The position numbers and the translations under genes were made by a program. The notes beneath the pieces were generated by a model that did not search any database, was not told the DNA's origin, and saw nothing but the letters and a program-made list of their open reading frames with translations. From Dehalobacter restrictus DSM 9455 (GTDB lineage: Bacteria > Bacillota > Desulfitobacteriia > Desulfitobacteriales > Syntrophobotulaceae): a DNA stretch of 64,000 nucleotides. Positions 55,977 to 62,633 of the stretch are shown piece after piece. The stretch is from the NCBI RefSeq assembly GCF_000512895.1, contig NZ_CP007033.1, positions 1,785,001-1,849,000 of the forward strand, written 5' to 3'. Each line of letters opens with the position of its first letter. Position 1 is the first letter of the stretch.

Positions 55977-57446
55977 TTAACCCATTAAAGTTATAATTCT
56001 TTTTAAATTAACAGCAAATATTGTGGTCGCCGCTTGTAGCTGCATACCAAATATGCCTGAAGCAGATGCAACACCATACCCATGTCTATGTTTTAGCTCG
56101 CTGTTTTTTGCCTCAATTTTGTAACGTTCCTTTGACTTTTCTTTGAAATATTCGCTATCCTGAAATATGGCCTGTTCTTCATGCGTGTGGTGTTTTATCG
56201 TTACAGAATATGTTTTGGTTTTTGCCCCGTCTTTATAGCAGCCTGCTTTATAGGGGCAGATTTTGCATTTTTCCACGTCGAATAAGTAGGATTCTACCGT
56301 TCCTGTACCGTCTTTAGCATGTTTTTTAGGCCGGGTGCTTGTCTTTTTAAAGCTCATATGTCCAGCCTGACAAACATACATCTGACAATCTTTATTAAAT
56401 TCAAATATATTGGGATTTATTCGGTTCGATTGTTGATGTGTCACTGTTTTACTCAGCTTAGAAACCAGATTGATGTTATTTTCTTTCGTATATACGATGT
56501 TATCTTTTTCGGAATAGGCTGCATCACCAATGATATCTGTAACTTCAATTCCTGCTTGTTCACTTTTTTCTACCAGGGCCTGAAGTTGTTTCCCGTCATG
56601 TTTTTCTCCTGATGTAACAACTGCGGCAGTTATGATCCGTTCTTCCGTCATGGCTAGATGAGTTTTATATCCGAAAAAGGCTGTATCCGCTGTTTTATGA
56701 CCCATTTTGGCATCGGCATCCTTTGACATTAAGGCTAATTGTTCATGGTCATCCTCAACCACTTCTTTTAGCATATTTAGTTTTTCTCTTACAGCAGGGT
56801 AACCGGAAATGTGTTCTGCGTTTTCAATGACCGTTATTAGTTTTTGGCAATACGCTAGTTCATCTTCCAGTAAGCCATTATTAACTTTTGCCGGGAATTG
56901 CTCTTTCATCTTATCATCTATGGCATAGACGGCTTTGCGTAGCCTCTTAGAACATTCTATTAAATGCTCCCGAGGTGATTTTTGATTGTATCTTGCCTGG
57001 GTATGGGTAGAATCTACTATGATGGCTTTGCTTTTTATAATACCTTTTTCCAAAGCGATTCCAACTGTTTTTTGGATCAATAGATCCAGCAGGTTTGTAT
57101 CTTTGAGCCGTAGCTTTCTGAACTTGGTCAGTGAACTGGGGTCAATGACTTCTTCTTCCGGTGTCATATCAAGAAAATATTTAAATGACATATCGTATTT
57201 TGATCGCTCCACCACATCAACATCTGATATGTCGAAAATGCTTTTTAGTAAAAGGTATTTGAACATCCGAACTGGATCTATTGCACCTCGTCCATTATTT
57301 TGACAATAGACATTAACCAACTCGTCGTAGATAAAATTAAAATCCACTAATTCGTTCATCTGTCGCAATAAATTATCTTTGGGTATGATCAAATCGTATA
57401 TGCCCATATAGGGACTTAAGGCCAGGCTTGTTTGTTTCTTTATCAT
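55977..57446 (-). CDS. IS1182-family transposase
   Basis: DDE transposase of 489 residues with an intact frame. The N-terminal part shows YMGIYDLIIPKDNLLRQMNE, GAIDPVRMFKYLLLKSIFDI and PSSLTKFRKLRLKD. The catalytic Asp is likely in SKAIIVDSTHTQARYN. Later regions are DADAKMGHKTADTAFFGYKT, TDIIGDAAYSEKDNIVY, a Cys-rich CKICPYKAGCYKDG and a C-terminal KNSELKHRHGYGVASASGIF with the probable catalytic Glu. It is not closely similar to the transposase at 5.3 kb. Confidence 0.94.
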   Translation of the reverse strand: MIKKQTSLALSPYMGIYDLIIPKDNLLRQMNELVDFNFIYDELVNVYCQNNGRGAIDPVRMFKYLLLKSIFDISDVDVVERSKYDMSFKYFLDMTPEEEVIDPSSLTKFRKLRLKDTNLLDLLIQKTVGIALEKGIIKSKAIIVDSTHTQARYNQKSPREHLIECSKRLRKAVYAIDDKMKEQFPAKVNNGLLEDELAYCQKLITVIENAEHISGYPAVREKLNMLKEVVEDDHEQLALMSKDADAKMGHKTADTAFFGYKTHLAMTEERIITAAVVTSGEKHDGKQLQALVEKSEQAGIEVTDIIGDAAYSEKDNIVYTKENNINLVSKLSKTVTHQQSNRINPNIFEFNKDCQMYVCQAGHMSFKKTSTRPKKHAKDGTGTVESYLFDVEKCKICPYKAGCYKDGAKTKTYSVTIKHHTHEEQAIFQDSEYFKEKSKERYKIEAKNSELKHRHGYGVASASGIFGMQLQAATTIFAVNLKRIITLMG

Positions 57447-58456: not shown

Positions 58457-60060
58457 TCAAGCCGTCTTTAGCCGGTGAAGCGGTTTCCCAATGCGCTCAT
58501 TCTGTATTTTAGCATGAAGCTTGTTGAAGTTATATCCAAAGCACAACAGCATAAACTCATTTTTCACACTTACTTTGCCGCGTGTTAAGAAACGATTGAA
58601 GTTGTAATCGTTCTTCAAGACCCCGAAGGCGCCTTCCGCCTGAATAGACCGATTTACCCTAAGTAAGATACTTTTTCGGATGTAATATTCTCATAGGATA
58701 CCTGGCGTTTCTCGATGAATTTCTTGGAAACCTGCATCCGTCGGTTTCCTTTGGACTTTGTACACTTCTCTCTCTTGAGACAGCCTTGGCAGTCCTCGCA
58801 TTCATATACCGTTATTTCAGACCGATAACCGGTTGCTGACATTCTATTTGTGATTCCTGCAGGTTTAAGTTGCTTGCCGTTACTGCAGGTGTATTCGTCT
58901 TTTTCGGCATTGTAATCCATGTTTTCTCGTTTGCTGATATCATTTTTAAAACTTCTTTTCTTCCATTGCTCATACGTTTGCGGCTTGATGTAACAGGCCT
59001 GTCTTTGCTTCTCCAGATACAGATAGTTTTCTTCACTTTCATAGCCGGAGTCGGCAATGATGTTCTTGTACCGGTATTTTAAGCGGCCCTCCATCTCTTT
59101 TAAAAAGGGGATCAGCGTGTTTAAGTCGTTTCTGTCTTGAAAAATATTCATGCCCGTTATGTATTCGCCTTCGACTCCAATCTGAACATTGTAAGCCGGC
59201 TTTAGCTGGGCATTGCGCATATGGTCGTCTTTCATATGCATGAAGGTGGCATCCGTGTCTGTCTTGGAGTAGCTATTTCTGCCATTAAACAGAGCATTAT
59301 GTTTATCGTATTCTGCCTGACGTAAGGAAAATTCTTTGATTTGTTCGGTATATCGCTGCAATTCTGTCTTCCGTTTGCCAATGCCATAAACAAATTCGAT
59401 GTTTTCTTCTTTTTGCTTCTCCTCTAAATACATGACTATTCCCGCCAGATCACGGCACAGGCTATCTTTGTTGACGCTGAAATTTGTATGGTAGGTTTCA
59501 TTAATTTTCTCCAGGCAACCTTGTATCTTAGTAAACATTTTGCTTTCATTTTTGCTCACTGCCTTCTTCCAAACGAAGGTATAACGATTGGCACTCGCTT
59601 CAATTTTTGTCCCGTCGATGAACAGATTTTCGAAGGCTACTTCGCCGATCTGATGCAGATAGATGACCATTTGATAAAATAATCCGTCGATGGCATCGAC
59701 GAGATAGTCTTTTCGAAACCGGGCAATGGTCGAATGATCCGGGGTCGGATTTCCCCCCAAGAGCCACATGAAATTAATATCTCTTCGGCAGGCTTTCTCA
59801 ATATTTCTGCTCGAATAGATATTGTTCATGTAAGCATAAGTCAGCACCTTGAATAGGATTTTTGGTTCGACTGCAGGTTTTCTTCCGGTAGAAGAGTATG
59901 CCTGATAGAGCTCTTTGTAGTTTAATCCCTCCAGTATGTGGCTGAGCAGTCGAACGGAGTCATCCTCCGGTATTAATACCTCAAAATTAAATGGTAAAAC
60001 TAATTGATACCCATCATGATATTCTGTATAATTTTTGTTGTGTAATTTATTTAGTTGCAT
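58457..60060 (-). pseudogene. IS1182-type transposase with a single-base frameshift near the end
   Basis: The frame from ATG 60060 gives 468 residues (LNYKELYQAYSSTGRKPAVE; PTPDHSTIARFRKDY; NLFIDGTKIEASANRYTFVW; KNIIADSGYESEENY) and stops at 58654 with SEKVSYLG. Adding one G after GAAAAAG would instead read SEKGILLRVNRSIQAEGAFG, followed by NFNRFLTRGKVSVKNEFMLL, and end LHRLKTA at 58457, the normal IS1182 C-terminus with the catalytic Glu. A 1-nt deletion therefore probably inactivates it, unless the base was missed in sequencing. Confidence 0.85.
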
Positions 60061-60210: not shown

Positions 60211-61047
60211 TTATAACTCTTTATTTCCCTTTTTCCCTTTTTCGTTATTAGAACCAATTCCTTTCAATGCTTTAACAAACCATGGAGTTGGTACCTTATT
60301 AATTTTTGCTGCATATCCGATGACTCTTGTAACATAGATCATCCCTACCCAAAAGACAATCAAATAATGAACATTGGATACGACTTTGGCAGGGAAATAT
60401 TCAATACTACTTAGCCCGGAAGTCAAGTTGACAAAGTAATTATGGGCAATAACGCCAACCATAATTGCGGCTAAGTTTACACAAAAAGCACATAGTTTGG
60501 CCTGTAAGCTATGATCTTTCTCCTTCCCTTCTTTAACTGCTCCAGGTATTAAGCTTATTAATGCGTCAAAAACGGCAAGTCCAATAAACCCACCAATAAT
60601 ACTAAAAATAGGAATACCAGTCCAAGCCGCAAAAGCAGAACCTAGAGCCGCTAGAGAGGCAATTAAGCCGACATGCTGCGTATAAGAACTTTTAATCTCT
60701 TCAGCGAAAGATTCAATTGGAGAACAAGCAAGCCATCCCATAATAGCACCACCAATCCTTGATAGAACACTATTATGTTTATTCAATGACTTTGGTTCTT
60801 TATACCCTGACCTTATTTCAAAACTTTTTTCATCCGTAAAAATCACTGTATATTCGGCAAATAAAACCTCATGTTTTTCATAAACATCAACATTCGACCC
60901 ATTAATTCCTGCGCTAAAGGTGAATTCTATATTATTTGGTGAAGTGAAGCTTTTTATAGCAGATATAAAATCCGAATGATTACTCTCAGGGGAAGCTTTA
61001 GCTTTTGATATTTTATTAAAGTCTACATCCATTGTGAGCGTATTCAT
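60211..61047 (-). CDS. Membrane protein of unknown function
   Basis: A 278-residue protein. The N-terminal roughly 90 residues are soluble and beta-rich (NIEFTFSAGINGSNVDVYEK; EYTVIFTDEKSFEIRSGYKE). The C-terminal part has about five hydrophobic segments (IGGAIMGWLACSPI; VGLIASLAALGSAFAAW; SIIGGFIGLAVFDALISLIP; LCAFCVNLAAIMVGVIA; YLIVFWVGMIYVTRVIGYAA) and a Lys-rich tail. The membrane half vaguely recalls phage holins, but I do not recognise a family. Its ATG overlaps the stop of the gene before it (ATGA). Confidence 0.7.
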   Translation of the reverse strand: MNTLTMDVDFNKISKAKASPESNHSDFISAIKSFTSPNNIEFTFSAGINGSNVDVYEKHEVLFAEYTVIFTDEKSFEIRSGYKEPKSLNKHNSVLSRIGGAIMGWLACSPIESFAEEIKSSYTQHVGLIASLAALGSAFAAWTGIPIFSIIGGFIGLAVFDALISLIPGAVKEGKEKDHSLQAKLCAFCVNLAAIMVGVIAHNYFVNLTSGLSSIEYFPAKVVSNVHYLIVFWVGMIYVTRVIGYAAKINKVPTPWFVKALKGIGSNNEKGKKGNKEL

Positions 61048-61454
61048 TCTTTTTCTCCCTTTCCCATCGTTATTAATATTCGATATTCGTTGAGTTTCTT
61101 CCTCCCTTTACTGACAACAAACTTGTATGATCCGAGTGATTTTATGAGTATCTCGTTAAATACGATCTTTACCGAGATATCTTTTGTTCCTTTTGGTATT
61201 TCAATTTTTAACGGCAGTTTGGTGACATACTCATCTTTATCATCTTTTACTGTCATTTCAAGTATGATGTCACCCTCATTTTCTTCAGCGTCTTCCGACT
61301 CAAAAACTTGAACCCCAACGACAATATTAAGGGATATTTTTTCAAACAAAGCTTTGATTGTTTTTGTGAAAAGAATGTTTTTGTAAGTTAAGGATTCATT
61401 TTCATTAATGACATCTTCACACGCCATAATATATGGAACGTTTACTCTAGCCAT
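61044..61454 (-). CDS. Beta-rich protein of unknown function, coupled to the membrane protein
   Basis: A 136-residue soluble protein with a strand-dominated pattern (SLNIVVGVQVFESEDAEENE; ILEMTVKDDKDEYVTKLPLK; DISVKIVFNEILIKSLGSYK; FVVSKGRKKLNEYRILITMG) suggesting an immunoglobulin-like or C2-like sandwich. AAGGTGG precedes the ATG. It overlaps the next gene by 4 bp, so the two work together. No family identified; it is an orphan cassette next to a tRNA-Leu and an IS. Confidence 0.65.
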   Translation of the reverse strand: MARVNVPYIMACEDVINENESLTYKNILFTKTIKALFEKISLNIVVGVQVFESEDAEENEGDIILEMTVKDDKDEYVTKLPLKIEIPKGTKDISVKIVFNEILIKSLGSYKFVVSKGRKKLNEYRILITMGKGEKE

Positions 61455-61661: not shown

Positions 61662-62633
61662 TCAACTGACCACATTTTCGGGAAACCCTGCCAGAAACTG
61701 TTCCAGATTGCGCACAGCCAGATCCATCAGCCGGATTCTTGCCTCCAGCGAGGCCCAGGAAATATGCGGTGTAATGATACAGTTTTTGGCCTGAAGCAGC
61801 GGATTATCCACTTGAATCGGTTCTGTCGACACAACATCCAACGCGGCTCCGGCAACCTTTCCGCTGTTCAGGGCCTCGGCTAAATCTTCCTCAACGATTA
61901 AAGGTCCTCTTGCATTGTTTACGATCATCACACCGGGTTTCATTTTAGCAATAGTCTGCTTGTTGATGATTCCTTTGGTATTTTCAAACAACGGGCAGTG
62001 CAGCATAATTGCGTCGGATTCAGCAAGTAGTGTATCCATATCGGCATATTTCATATCAGGACTTTCCAAGGACGGATCGGGATTACTGTCAACAGCCAGG
62101 ATCCTCATCCCCAAAGCCTGAGCTATTCTTCCAGTTGCCTGGCCAATTCTGCCGTGACCGATGATTCCCATGGTCTTTCCCGCCAGTTCTATGAGTGGGT
62201 AGTTCCAGTAACACCAGTCCGGATTGCCGGACCATTCTCCTCTCCGAACCGATTCGCTGTGCGGCCAGACATGGCAGCACATTTCAAGTAGCAGCGCAAT
62301 TGCCATCTGAGCGACAAAATTCGTCCCGTAGGCCGGAATATTCGTTACGACAATTCCTCTTTCTTTGGCTGCCTCAACATCGACAATATTATAGCCCGTT
62401 GCGAGAACCCCGATAAATTTTAAATCAGGTGCGTTTTCCAGCACTGTTCTGGATAAAGGTGTTTTATTGGTAAAGATAATCTCCGCCCTGTCGATCCTTT
62501 CCATGATCAAATCTTCATTGCCGGCATGATAGGCGGTGCGGTCATAGACGGTAAGCTCCCCAAGCCTTTCCAGCCCGCTCCATGATATATCTCCGGGATT
62601 AAGCGTATATCCATCCAAAACGACGATCTTCAT
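61662..62633 (-). CDS. D-2-hydroxyacid dehydrogenase (glycerate/hydroxypyruvate type)
   Basis: NAD(P)-dependent dehydrogenase of 323 residues. Rossmann motif GKTMGIIGHGRIGQATGRIA; NNARGPLIVEEDLAEALNSG; AGAALDVVSTEPIQVDNPLL; catalytic His in ITPHISWAS. The N-terminal substrate domain has GVLATGYNIVDVEAAKERGI. It precedes nothing closely but follows glycerate kinase on the same strand, so glyoxylate, hydroxypyruvate or glycerate interconversion is plausible. GGGAGGACACT precedes the ATG. A second paralogue lies at 45.3 kb. Confidence 0.92.
   Translation of the reverse strand: MKIVVLDGYTLNPGDISWSGLERLGELTVYDRTAYHAGNEDLIMERIDRAEIIFTNKTPLSRTVLENAPDLKFIGVLATGYNIVDVEAAKERGIVVTNIPAYGTNFVAQMAIALLLEMCCHVWPHSESVRRGEWSGNPDWCYWNYPLIELAGKTMGIIGHGRIGQATGRIAQALGMRILAVDSNPDPSLESPDMKYADMDTLLAESDAIMLHCPLFENTKGIINKQTIAKMKPGVMIVNNARGPLIVEEDLAEALNSGKVAGAALDVVSTEPIQVDNPLLQAKNCIITPHISWASLEARIRLMDLAVRNLEQFLAGFPENVVS

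Follow-up and report, generated by a model that had tools for sequence, protein, structure and literature searches.

A gene pair with relatives in phages beside a tRNA-Leu gene of Dehalobacter restrictus

The gene pair and its chromosomal site

Two minus-strand genes of the window (the whole stretch of 64,000 nucleotides of Dehalobacter restrictus DSM 9455 that was analysed) overlap at the four bases ATGA. Both open reading frames and their overlap lie exactly where an earlier note, made from the letters alone, had put them. The features of the locus are the following.

61044 to 61454, minus strand: gene 1, 136 aa, predicted all-beta and Ig-like (ORF listing and weak profile matches)
60211 to 61047, minus strand: gene 2, a 278-aa membrane protein with a soluble head and a four-TM tail (ORF, blastp, alignment and hydropathy)
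61044 to 61047, minus strand: ATGA overlap of the gene 1 stop and the gene 2 start (ORF listing)
60742 to 61047, minus strand: head of gene 2, residues 1-102 (alignment with the viral contigs L070 and L071)
60211 to 60741, minus strand: membrane tail of gene 2; initiation at the internal ATG (M103) would yield this part alone, as a short form of 176 aa
58016 to 58102, plus strand: tRNA-Leu(CAG), which flanks the pair in the genomes G000, G051 and G052
58654 to 60060, minus strand: DDE (DUF772) transposase gene separating the pair from tRNA-Leu, missing here in G052
55977 to 57446: second DDE transposase gene, beyond the tRNA
61662 to 62633, minus strand: 2-hydroxyacid dehydrogenase gene (named by eye), a conserved flank of the pair

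The pair was found intact and adjacent in 3 of the 73 genomes of the order, all of one genus, and was absent from the other two of the five genomes of that genus. In three pairwise genome comparisons, dN/dS ranged from 0.08 to 0.18 for gene 1 and from 0.20 to 0.22 for gene 2; both genes are under purifying selection and are more than chance ORFs. Their GC contents are 33% and 36%, compared to 45-52% in the four neighbouring genes measured. The earlier note had considered the genes typical of acquired DNA, which is borne out by this low GC, by the patchy distribution within the genus and by the phage homologues described below. The survey that it proposed found the two genes travelling together in these three genomes; in L070 and L071 a gene 2 homologue is overlapped by a phrog_5881-type partner.

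In all three genomes the order is lepB, tRNA-Leu(CAG), the pair, 2-hydroxyacid dehydrogenase and glycerate kinase (names given by eye). The locus had been described as an IS/tRNA boundary. The tRNA-Leu and transposase genes are indeed near, but the IS was not the vehicle of the pair: the gap between lepB and the pair measures 1510 bp in G051 and 493 bp in G052, where it holds only tRNA-Leu and no ORF of at least 80 aa. Since the G052 site has no IS, the IS came into the window later than the pair, which is thus the older of the two, and an arrival of both together is ruled out. The genome G054 has no copy of the pair, and its dehydrogenase gene adjoins tRNA-Leu; we rejected this junction as a clean empty site since the two genes stand in a different relative orientation, with the tRNA inverted. 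G053 (~210 contigs) showed no close dehydrogenase orthologue (best 33%). An att repeat was sought at the site of the pair and not found, and no phage genes flank the pair in the three carrier genomes, so that the route of arrival is one that we infer; as a guess, tRNA-Leu might be a former integration site. Taken together, site, age, GC and selection data indicate that the cassette beside the tRNA gene was acquired, has become fixed and is maintained by selection. As a separate observation, three tandem 553-aa ORFs with the same start, transposase-like by eye, lie near the tRNA-Leu of G054 (L088, 9388-14765).

Homologues, anatomy and fold of the two proteins

Gene 2 aligned by blastp with the gene 2 tails of two viral contigs, L070 (IMGVR_UViG_2850738089_000001; 32% over 195 aa, E = 2e-30) and L071 (IMGVR_UViG_3300017653_000009; 28% over 154 aa, E = 1e-22), which were the only clear homologues found outside the genus. 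On these alignments gene 2 is homologous to proteins of both contigs, where its partner is a phrog_5881 protein, and this homology ties the window pair to phages. Searches with gene 2 in the same order and phylum returned only the three genus members and a match in L012, rejected as spurious (65 residues with an internal stop, among housekeeping-like genes). Nothing was found for gene 1 and gene 2 in plasmids or for gene 1 in phages (tblastn), for L070 gene 2 in phages and plasmids, or for L022 gene 1 in plasmids; genome-contig scans, and viral scans with the window proteins and some relatives, likewise gave nothing.

The earlier note had described the 278-residue protein as a soluble head followed by a membrane tail of about five helices. 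The analysis agreed on the membrane tail and on the head, which spans some 100 aa, but hydropathy gave four clear segments, starting near residues 133, 152, 181 and 222. Because of the positive loop between TM 2 and 3 and the lysine-rich C-terminus, inspection by eye suggests a topology with both ends inside; the structure model was poor (single sequence, pLDDT 45). The head is without the N-terminal hydrophobic segment present in most phage relatives: a segment starting within the first 55 residues was seen in most phage gene 2 proteins and is missing in those of the window, AP45 and L066. The C-terminal module consists of four TM segments in the window, L070 and L071, of a coiled coil plus TM in 38502, L061, L039, L040 and AP45, and is of other types in L073, L022 and L066. 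Coiled coils were called by eye and by generic Pfam matches, and we rejected the latter as evidence of function. An N-terminal 'FE...' motif common to window and phage gene 2 proteins is not claimed either: over full length a single comparison of 8 gave z above 2, and only a region chosen after sight brought this to 3 of 8.

Gene 2 was rejected as a lysis holin, its tail having no match to any Pfam holin family. Neither Phage_holin_4_1 (PF05105) nor any other Pfam holin was matched by the tails of the window, L070 and L071 (E<=1) or by the whole proteins (E<=10). XhlA (PF10779, cut-off 34.7 bits) gave no match with the window tail and was listed only for the L039 gene 2, at 12 bits and E = 0.25. 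When the tail was compared by hhalign with the holin of L070, only 18 columns aligned.

For gene 1, the statement that no family is recognised holds at curated cut-offs, but weak leads exist. Its score against PF22091 (DUF6941) was 15.8 bits (E = 0.018), below the curated cut-off of 27 bits. It matched phrog_5881 at E = 0.0041 over residues 8-118, and the PADLOC model PDC-S19 at E = 0.0023, covering only positions 188-282 of 338; the PDC-S19 match was absent in the four gene 1 relatives scanned (L022, L008, L009 and L021). A profile of 10 relatives scored gene 1 above 997 of 997 shuffles, and hhalign with the phrog_5881/DUF6941 group was colinear over 119 columns (E = 0.0098, with a probability of only 4.2%). 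Pairwise z exceeded 2 in just 5 of 10 comparisons, identity to the aligned relatives was only 11-20%, and the direct comparison with gene 1 of L070 was not significant. Because these weak sequence scores come together with the gene 2 partnership, we weakly favour gene 1 as a distant relative of the phrog_5881/DUF6941 group.

The strand-rich character noted earlier for the 136-residue protein agrees with its model, which is all-beta at modest confidence (9-sequence alignment, mean pLDDT 59, pTM 0.56). At E<=0.001 the model had just two viral fold matches, to phage proteins of similar size (134 and 138 aa) that are uncharacterised. The PDB neighbours of the model are generic beta-sandwiches and were rejected as a clue to function (VIA Z <=7.7, Foldseek E >0.01); profiles of gene 1 and gene 2 gave no convincing solved relative by sequence. 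Neither a signal peptide nor a TM segment was seen in gene 1, and its product is probably cytosolic.

Phage and prophage pairs and the internal start of gene 2

Within the phylum, DUF6941 was matched in 18 of the 398 genomes searched. At L008 and L022 the second gene overlaps the first and a third gene lies behind; the L022 pair sits after phage tail (Mu Gp48-like), amidase and holin genes. With L022 gene 1 as query, tblastn picked out Lactococcus phage 38502, whose protein in turn led to Leuconostoc phiMH1 and Enterococcus 4995_1. All three have a second gene directly behind gene 1 and lysin and holin genes upstream; an integrase gene lies beyond the pair in phiMH1 and 4995_1, and the 38502 record ends at that point. 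Each of the gene 1 proteins of 38502, L022, L008, L021 and L009 is a phrog_5881 match, with E no higher than 3.3e-15. When viral contigs were scanned with gene 1 of L022, L066 and L008, four loci came up, among them L070 and L071, whose gene 1 proteins match phrog_5881 at 3.9e-19 and 3e-19, respectively; against the PF22091 cut-off of 27, that of L070 passes with 32.4 bits and that of L071 fails with 24.2 bits. Both of these pairs stand directly behind an endolysin gene, and the 4-base overlap of gene 1 and gene 2 is found likewise in L070, L071, L073 and L022.

An endolysin gene lies no more than about 3 kb from the pair in 10 of the 11 phage or prophage loci taken as distinct (including both L072 and L073, which are near-identical). 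It adjoins the pair, or has only a holin gene between, in 38502, phiMH1, L070, L022, L040 and L071, and is separated by other ORFs in 4995_1, L072, L073 and L039, in the last of which the arrangement is tail to tail. In the eleventh locus, AP45, which was reached by a weak tblastn match (E = 2e-3), the pair is beside a recombinase gene. Integrase, recombinase or repressor genes lie on one side in phiMH1, 4995_1, AP45 and L070. Wherever they could be named in phage loci, holin and endolysin are genes separate from the pair. The earlier note had raised the possibility of a known phage lysis module: the phage pairs are indeed near lysis genes, but the pair matches no lysis family.

A second gene lies -17 to +13 bp downstream of gene 1 in 13 of the 15 distinct phrog_5881-type loci, window included, L009 and L021 being the two without an adjacent second gene. 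Twelve of these 13 second genes encode a hydrophobic segment (L066 has none). The window pair has the same two-gene layout, with its 4-base overlap and four TM segments in gene 2. The cassette had been called an orphan without a family; this description fails for the layout, which recurs as above, and for the proteins, gene 2 having viral homologues and gene 1 a weak match to a phage family. In these counts the 4995_1-type contigs L041-L060 were taken once, and L061 and phiMH1 together were taken once; L062 and L063, cut or altered inside gene 1, were dropped, and L072, which ends with gene 1, is in the 11 phage loci and not in the 15. Sixteen further DUF6941 loci (L007, L013-L020, L023-L029) are not among the 15, having been assigned to another branch by eye, without a phrog_5881 scan. 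No small membrane gene was seen directly behind gene 1 in these 16 loci, so that the pairing appears to be a feature of the phrog_5881 branch and not of DUF6941 at large.

Several neighbourhoods deserve mention in their own right. A third gene of 183-201 aa, with a 'QGDI ... QACDL' motif, lies behind the pair in L008 (2490-3080), L022 (2481-3032) and L073 (5957-6562). It had no Pfam match at E<0.1; the L008 copy matched phrog_4575 (E = 4.9e-5) and the L022 and L073 copies did not, and no match was found in the five genus genomes, a search run without a positive control. In L021 (350-2238) the neighbour of a phrog_5881-type gene is an AbiLi-like ATPase gene (PADLOC E = 3.9e-72), which lies 120 bp downstream. 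In another branch of the family, at L024, L026 and L029, the genes of secreted-looking DUF6941-type proteins come after sigma-factor-like and anti-sigma-like genes (by eye) and are followed by a gene for a large secreted protein. At L007 (998-2142), beside a phage amidase-like gene, a 144-aa PemK/MazF-like protein (by eye) is encoded directly before a DUF6941 protein with a C-terminal extension carrying CxxC motifs.

We also compared the internal starts of gene 2. An internal in-frame ATG with a very strong Shine-Dalgarno (SD) sequence occurs in 38502, L061, L039, L040, L071 and L073 (duplex -10.7 to -13.0), and in each of them it is the best in-frame start. With a threshold of -10.5, set after the values had been seen, SD energies this low were found in 6 of 11 non-Dehalobacter gene 2 sequences and in 4 of 111 control ORFs (mechanical, from the same contigs; 5 of 112 before one that is gene 2 itself was removed). 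Synonymous shuffles reached the observed SD, per 200, in 5 cases for 38502, 17 for L061, 5 for L039, 6 for L040, 4 for L071 and 26 for L073, and in 63 for p4995, 79 for L022, 189 for L008, 3 for L066 and 194 for L070. The AP45 gene 2, tested later, had a best SD energy of -8.6. An internal start is absent in p4995 and L008 and not convincing in L070. M103 of the window gene 2 aligns with M184 of L070 and M182 of L071, and the window site is weak (SD energy -6.2, reached by 172 of 200 shuffles). From the SD and shuffle data we infer that several phage versions may produce a long and a short form of gene 2 from one frame; these data support a dual start in some phage relatives and not by the window's own sequence.

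Interpretation and comparison with known systems

Prophages often carry conversion genes between the lysin gene and the attachment site. We tentatively read the pair, with slightly less than even confidence, as a captured phage lysogenic-conversion ('moron') cassette made of an Ig-like partner and a membrane effector, possibly serving superinfection exclusion. By our own estimate, which was not computed, a phage origin of the pair is very likely, a physical partnership of the two products is fairly probable, and an anti-phage role is plausible while falling somewhat short of an even chance. The cassette would have settled beside tRNA-Leu in an ancestor of part of the genus and been kept by selection. 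Translational coupling would make the two proteins together: from gene 1 an Ig-like regulator or adaptor in the cytosol, which would bind the cytosolic head of gene 2, and from gene 2 a membrane effector, with its tail at work in the cytoplasmic membrane. In several phages gene 2 would give a long form from the overlapping start and a short form from the internal one. In the lysogen the pair may be silent or protective; upon entry of a competing phage it would block DNA entry or disturb the membrane, and superinfection exclusion or abortive infection is the role that we favour for gene 2. A shared mechanism across phages is not assured because the C-terminal modules differ widely. For the window pair, the defence or envelope role considered in the earlier note is possible.

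The position of the pairs near endolysin and holin genes, an internal start pattern like that of dual-start holins in several phage versions, and the small C-terminal modules with several TM segments or a coiled coil plus TM would also suit an accessory lysis-timing cassette. The short form of gene 2 would then be holin-like or a membrane-anchored coiled-coil lysis helper, restrained by the long form and gene 1, and the chromosomal copy a relic or a domesticated autolysis regulator. We consider this unlikely. L070 already has an upstream holin (PF05105, E = 9.7e-35) and a GH25 endolysin (E = 4.2e-49), and 38502, phiMH1 and L022 likewise have separate holin and lysin genes. The lack of a holin family match for the tail and the short alignment with the L070 holin count against this function, and purifying selection without neighbouring phage genes would be odd for a lysis gene.

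That selection, with the pair kept at one locus in three genomes at low dN/dS, could instead reflect conversion genes that serve host fitness without anti-phage action, e.g. a protein for the envelope or for membrane stress, partnered by an Ig-like one in the cytosol. Similar pairs do occur outside evident phage context, behind a DNA polymerase III alpha gene in L008/L065 and behind housekeeping-like genes (named by eye) in L066. However, most pairs found are in phages, near lysis or lysogeny genes, and the highly variable C-terminal modules suggest conflict and not housekeeping; we judge a purely host-serving role distinctly unlikely. It is more improbable still that the pair is a toxin-antitoxin-like addiction system in which the tail of gene 2 is a membrane toxin neutralised by gene 1. 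A small soluble and a membrane protein encoded by overlapping genes of mobile origin would fit, but no TA model passes (gene 2 against NF047370 toxin_TsaT, E = 0.071 and 13.5 bits for a cut-off of 80; none for gene 1), and 2 of the 15 gene 1 loci have no partner next to them.

The conversion-cassette reading can be extended to a phage-borne system, as yet unnamed, whose membrane effector is modular, comes in two forms from one frame and is controlled by the Ig-like protein of the cytosol. The N-terminal hydrophobic segment of the long form would put the membrane module in a topology opposite to that of the short form, so that the two forms would antagonise each other; C-terminal modules of different kinds (four-TM bundle, coiled coil plus TM, or soluble) would be exchanged among phages, and the window copy would be a domesticated version without the flipping segment. 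With the flipping and domestication details included, we regard this as rather improbable.

The uncharacterised family phrog_5881/DUF6941 is now linked to a cassette that recurs in phages and includes a membrane partner with a candidate internal start, and the lactococcal phage 38502, Leuconostoc phiMH1, Enterococcus 4995_1 and Aeribacillus AP45 are sequenced phages in which its function is assayable. A full-text search of a limited literature collection found no paper on DUF6941, PDC-S19 or phrog 5881. The genes of the pair are not mentioned in the portions available of PMC5301393 (phage 38502) and PMC4009412 (phiMH1), and in the accessible portion of PMC11578063 (Dehalobacter) the word 'prophage' occurs once, in a figure legend.

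Four known systems come nearest to the pair. Dual-start holin/antiholin genes such as lambda S encode a longer and a shorter membrane protein from two starts in a single frame. The very strong internal SD in 6 of the 11 phage-type gene 2 sequences recalls this arrangement, but the long form here would be ~90-180 residues longer, not 2, there is no holin family match, and the window site is weak. Proteins of phrog_5881 and PF22091 (DUF6941) resemble gene 1 in length, in all-beta character and in a colinear profile alignment, and the phrog_5881 branch shares the overlapping downstream membrane gene, whereas the window protein stays below the PF22091 cut-off (15.8 vs 27 bits) at 11-20% identity. 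In the pairs of 38502, phiMH1, 4995_1 and AP45, gene 1 is related and the gene 2 directly behind it encodes a hydrophobic segment, with lysis or recombinase genes close by; the C-terminal parts of their gene 2 proteins, a coiled coil plus TM or a single TM, are however not evidently homologous to that of the window. At 343 aa the viral gene 2 of the L070/L071 pair is the longer one, having a more extended linker and an additional hydrophobic segment at its N-terminus, and it lies behind an endolysin gene, whereas the window pair occupies a bare chromosomal site; the two share a homologous gene 2 membrane tail, the ATGA overlap and the aligned internal methionine.
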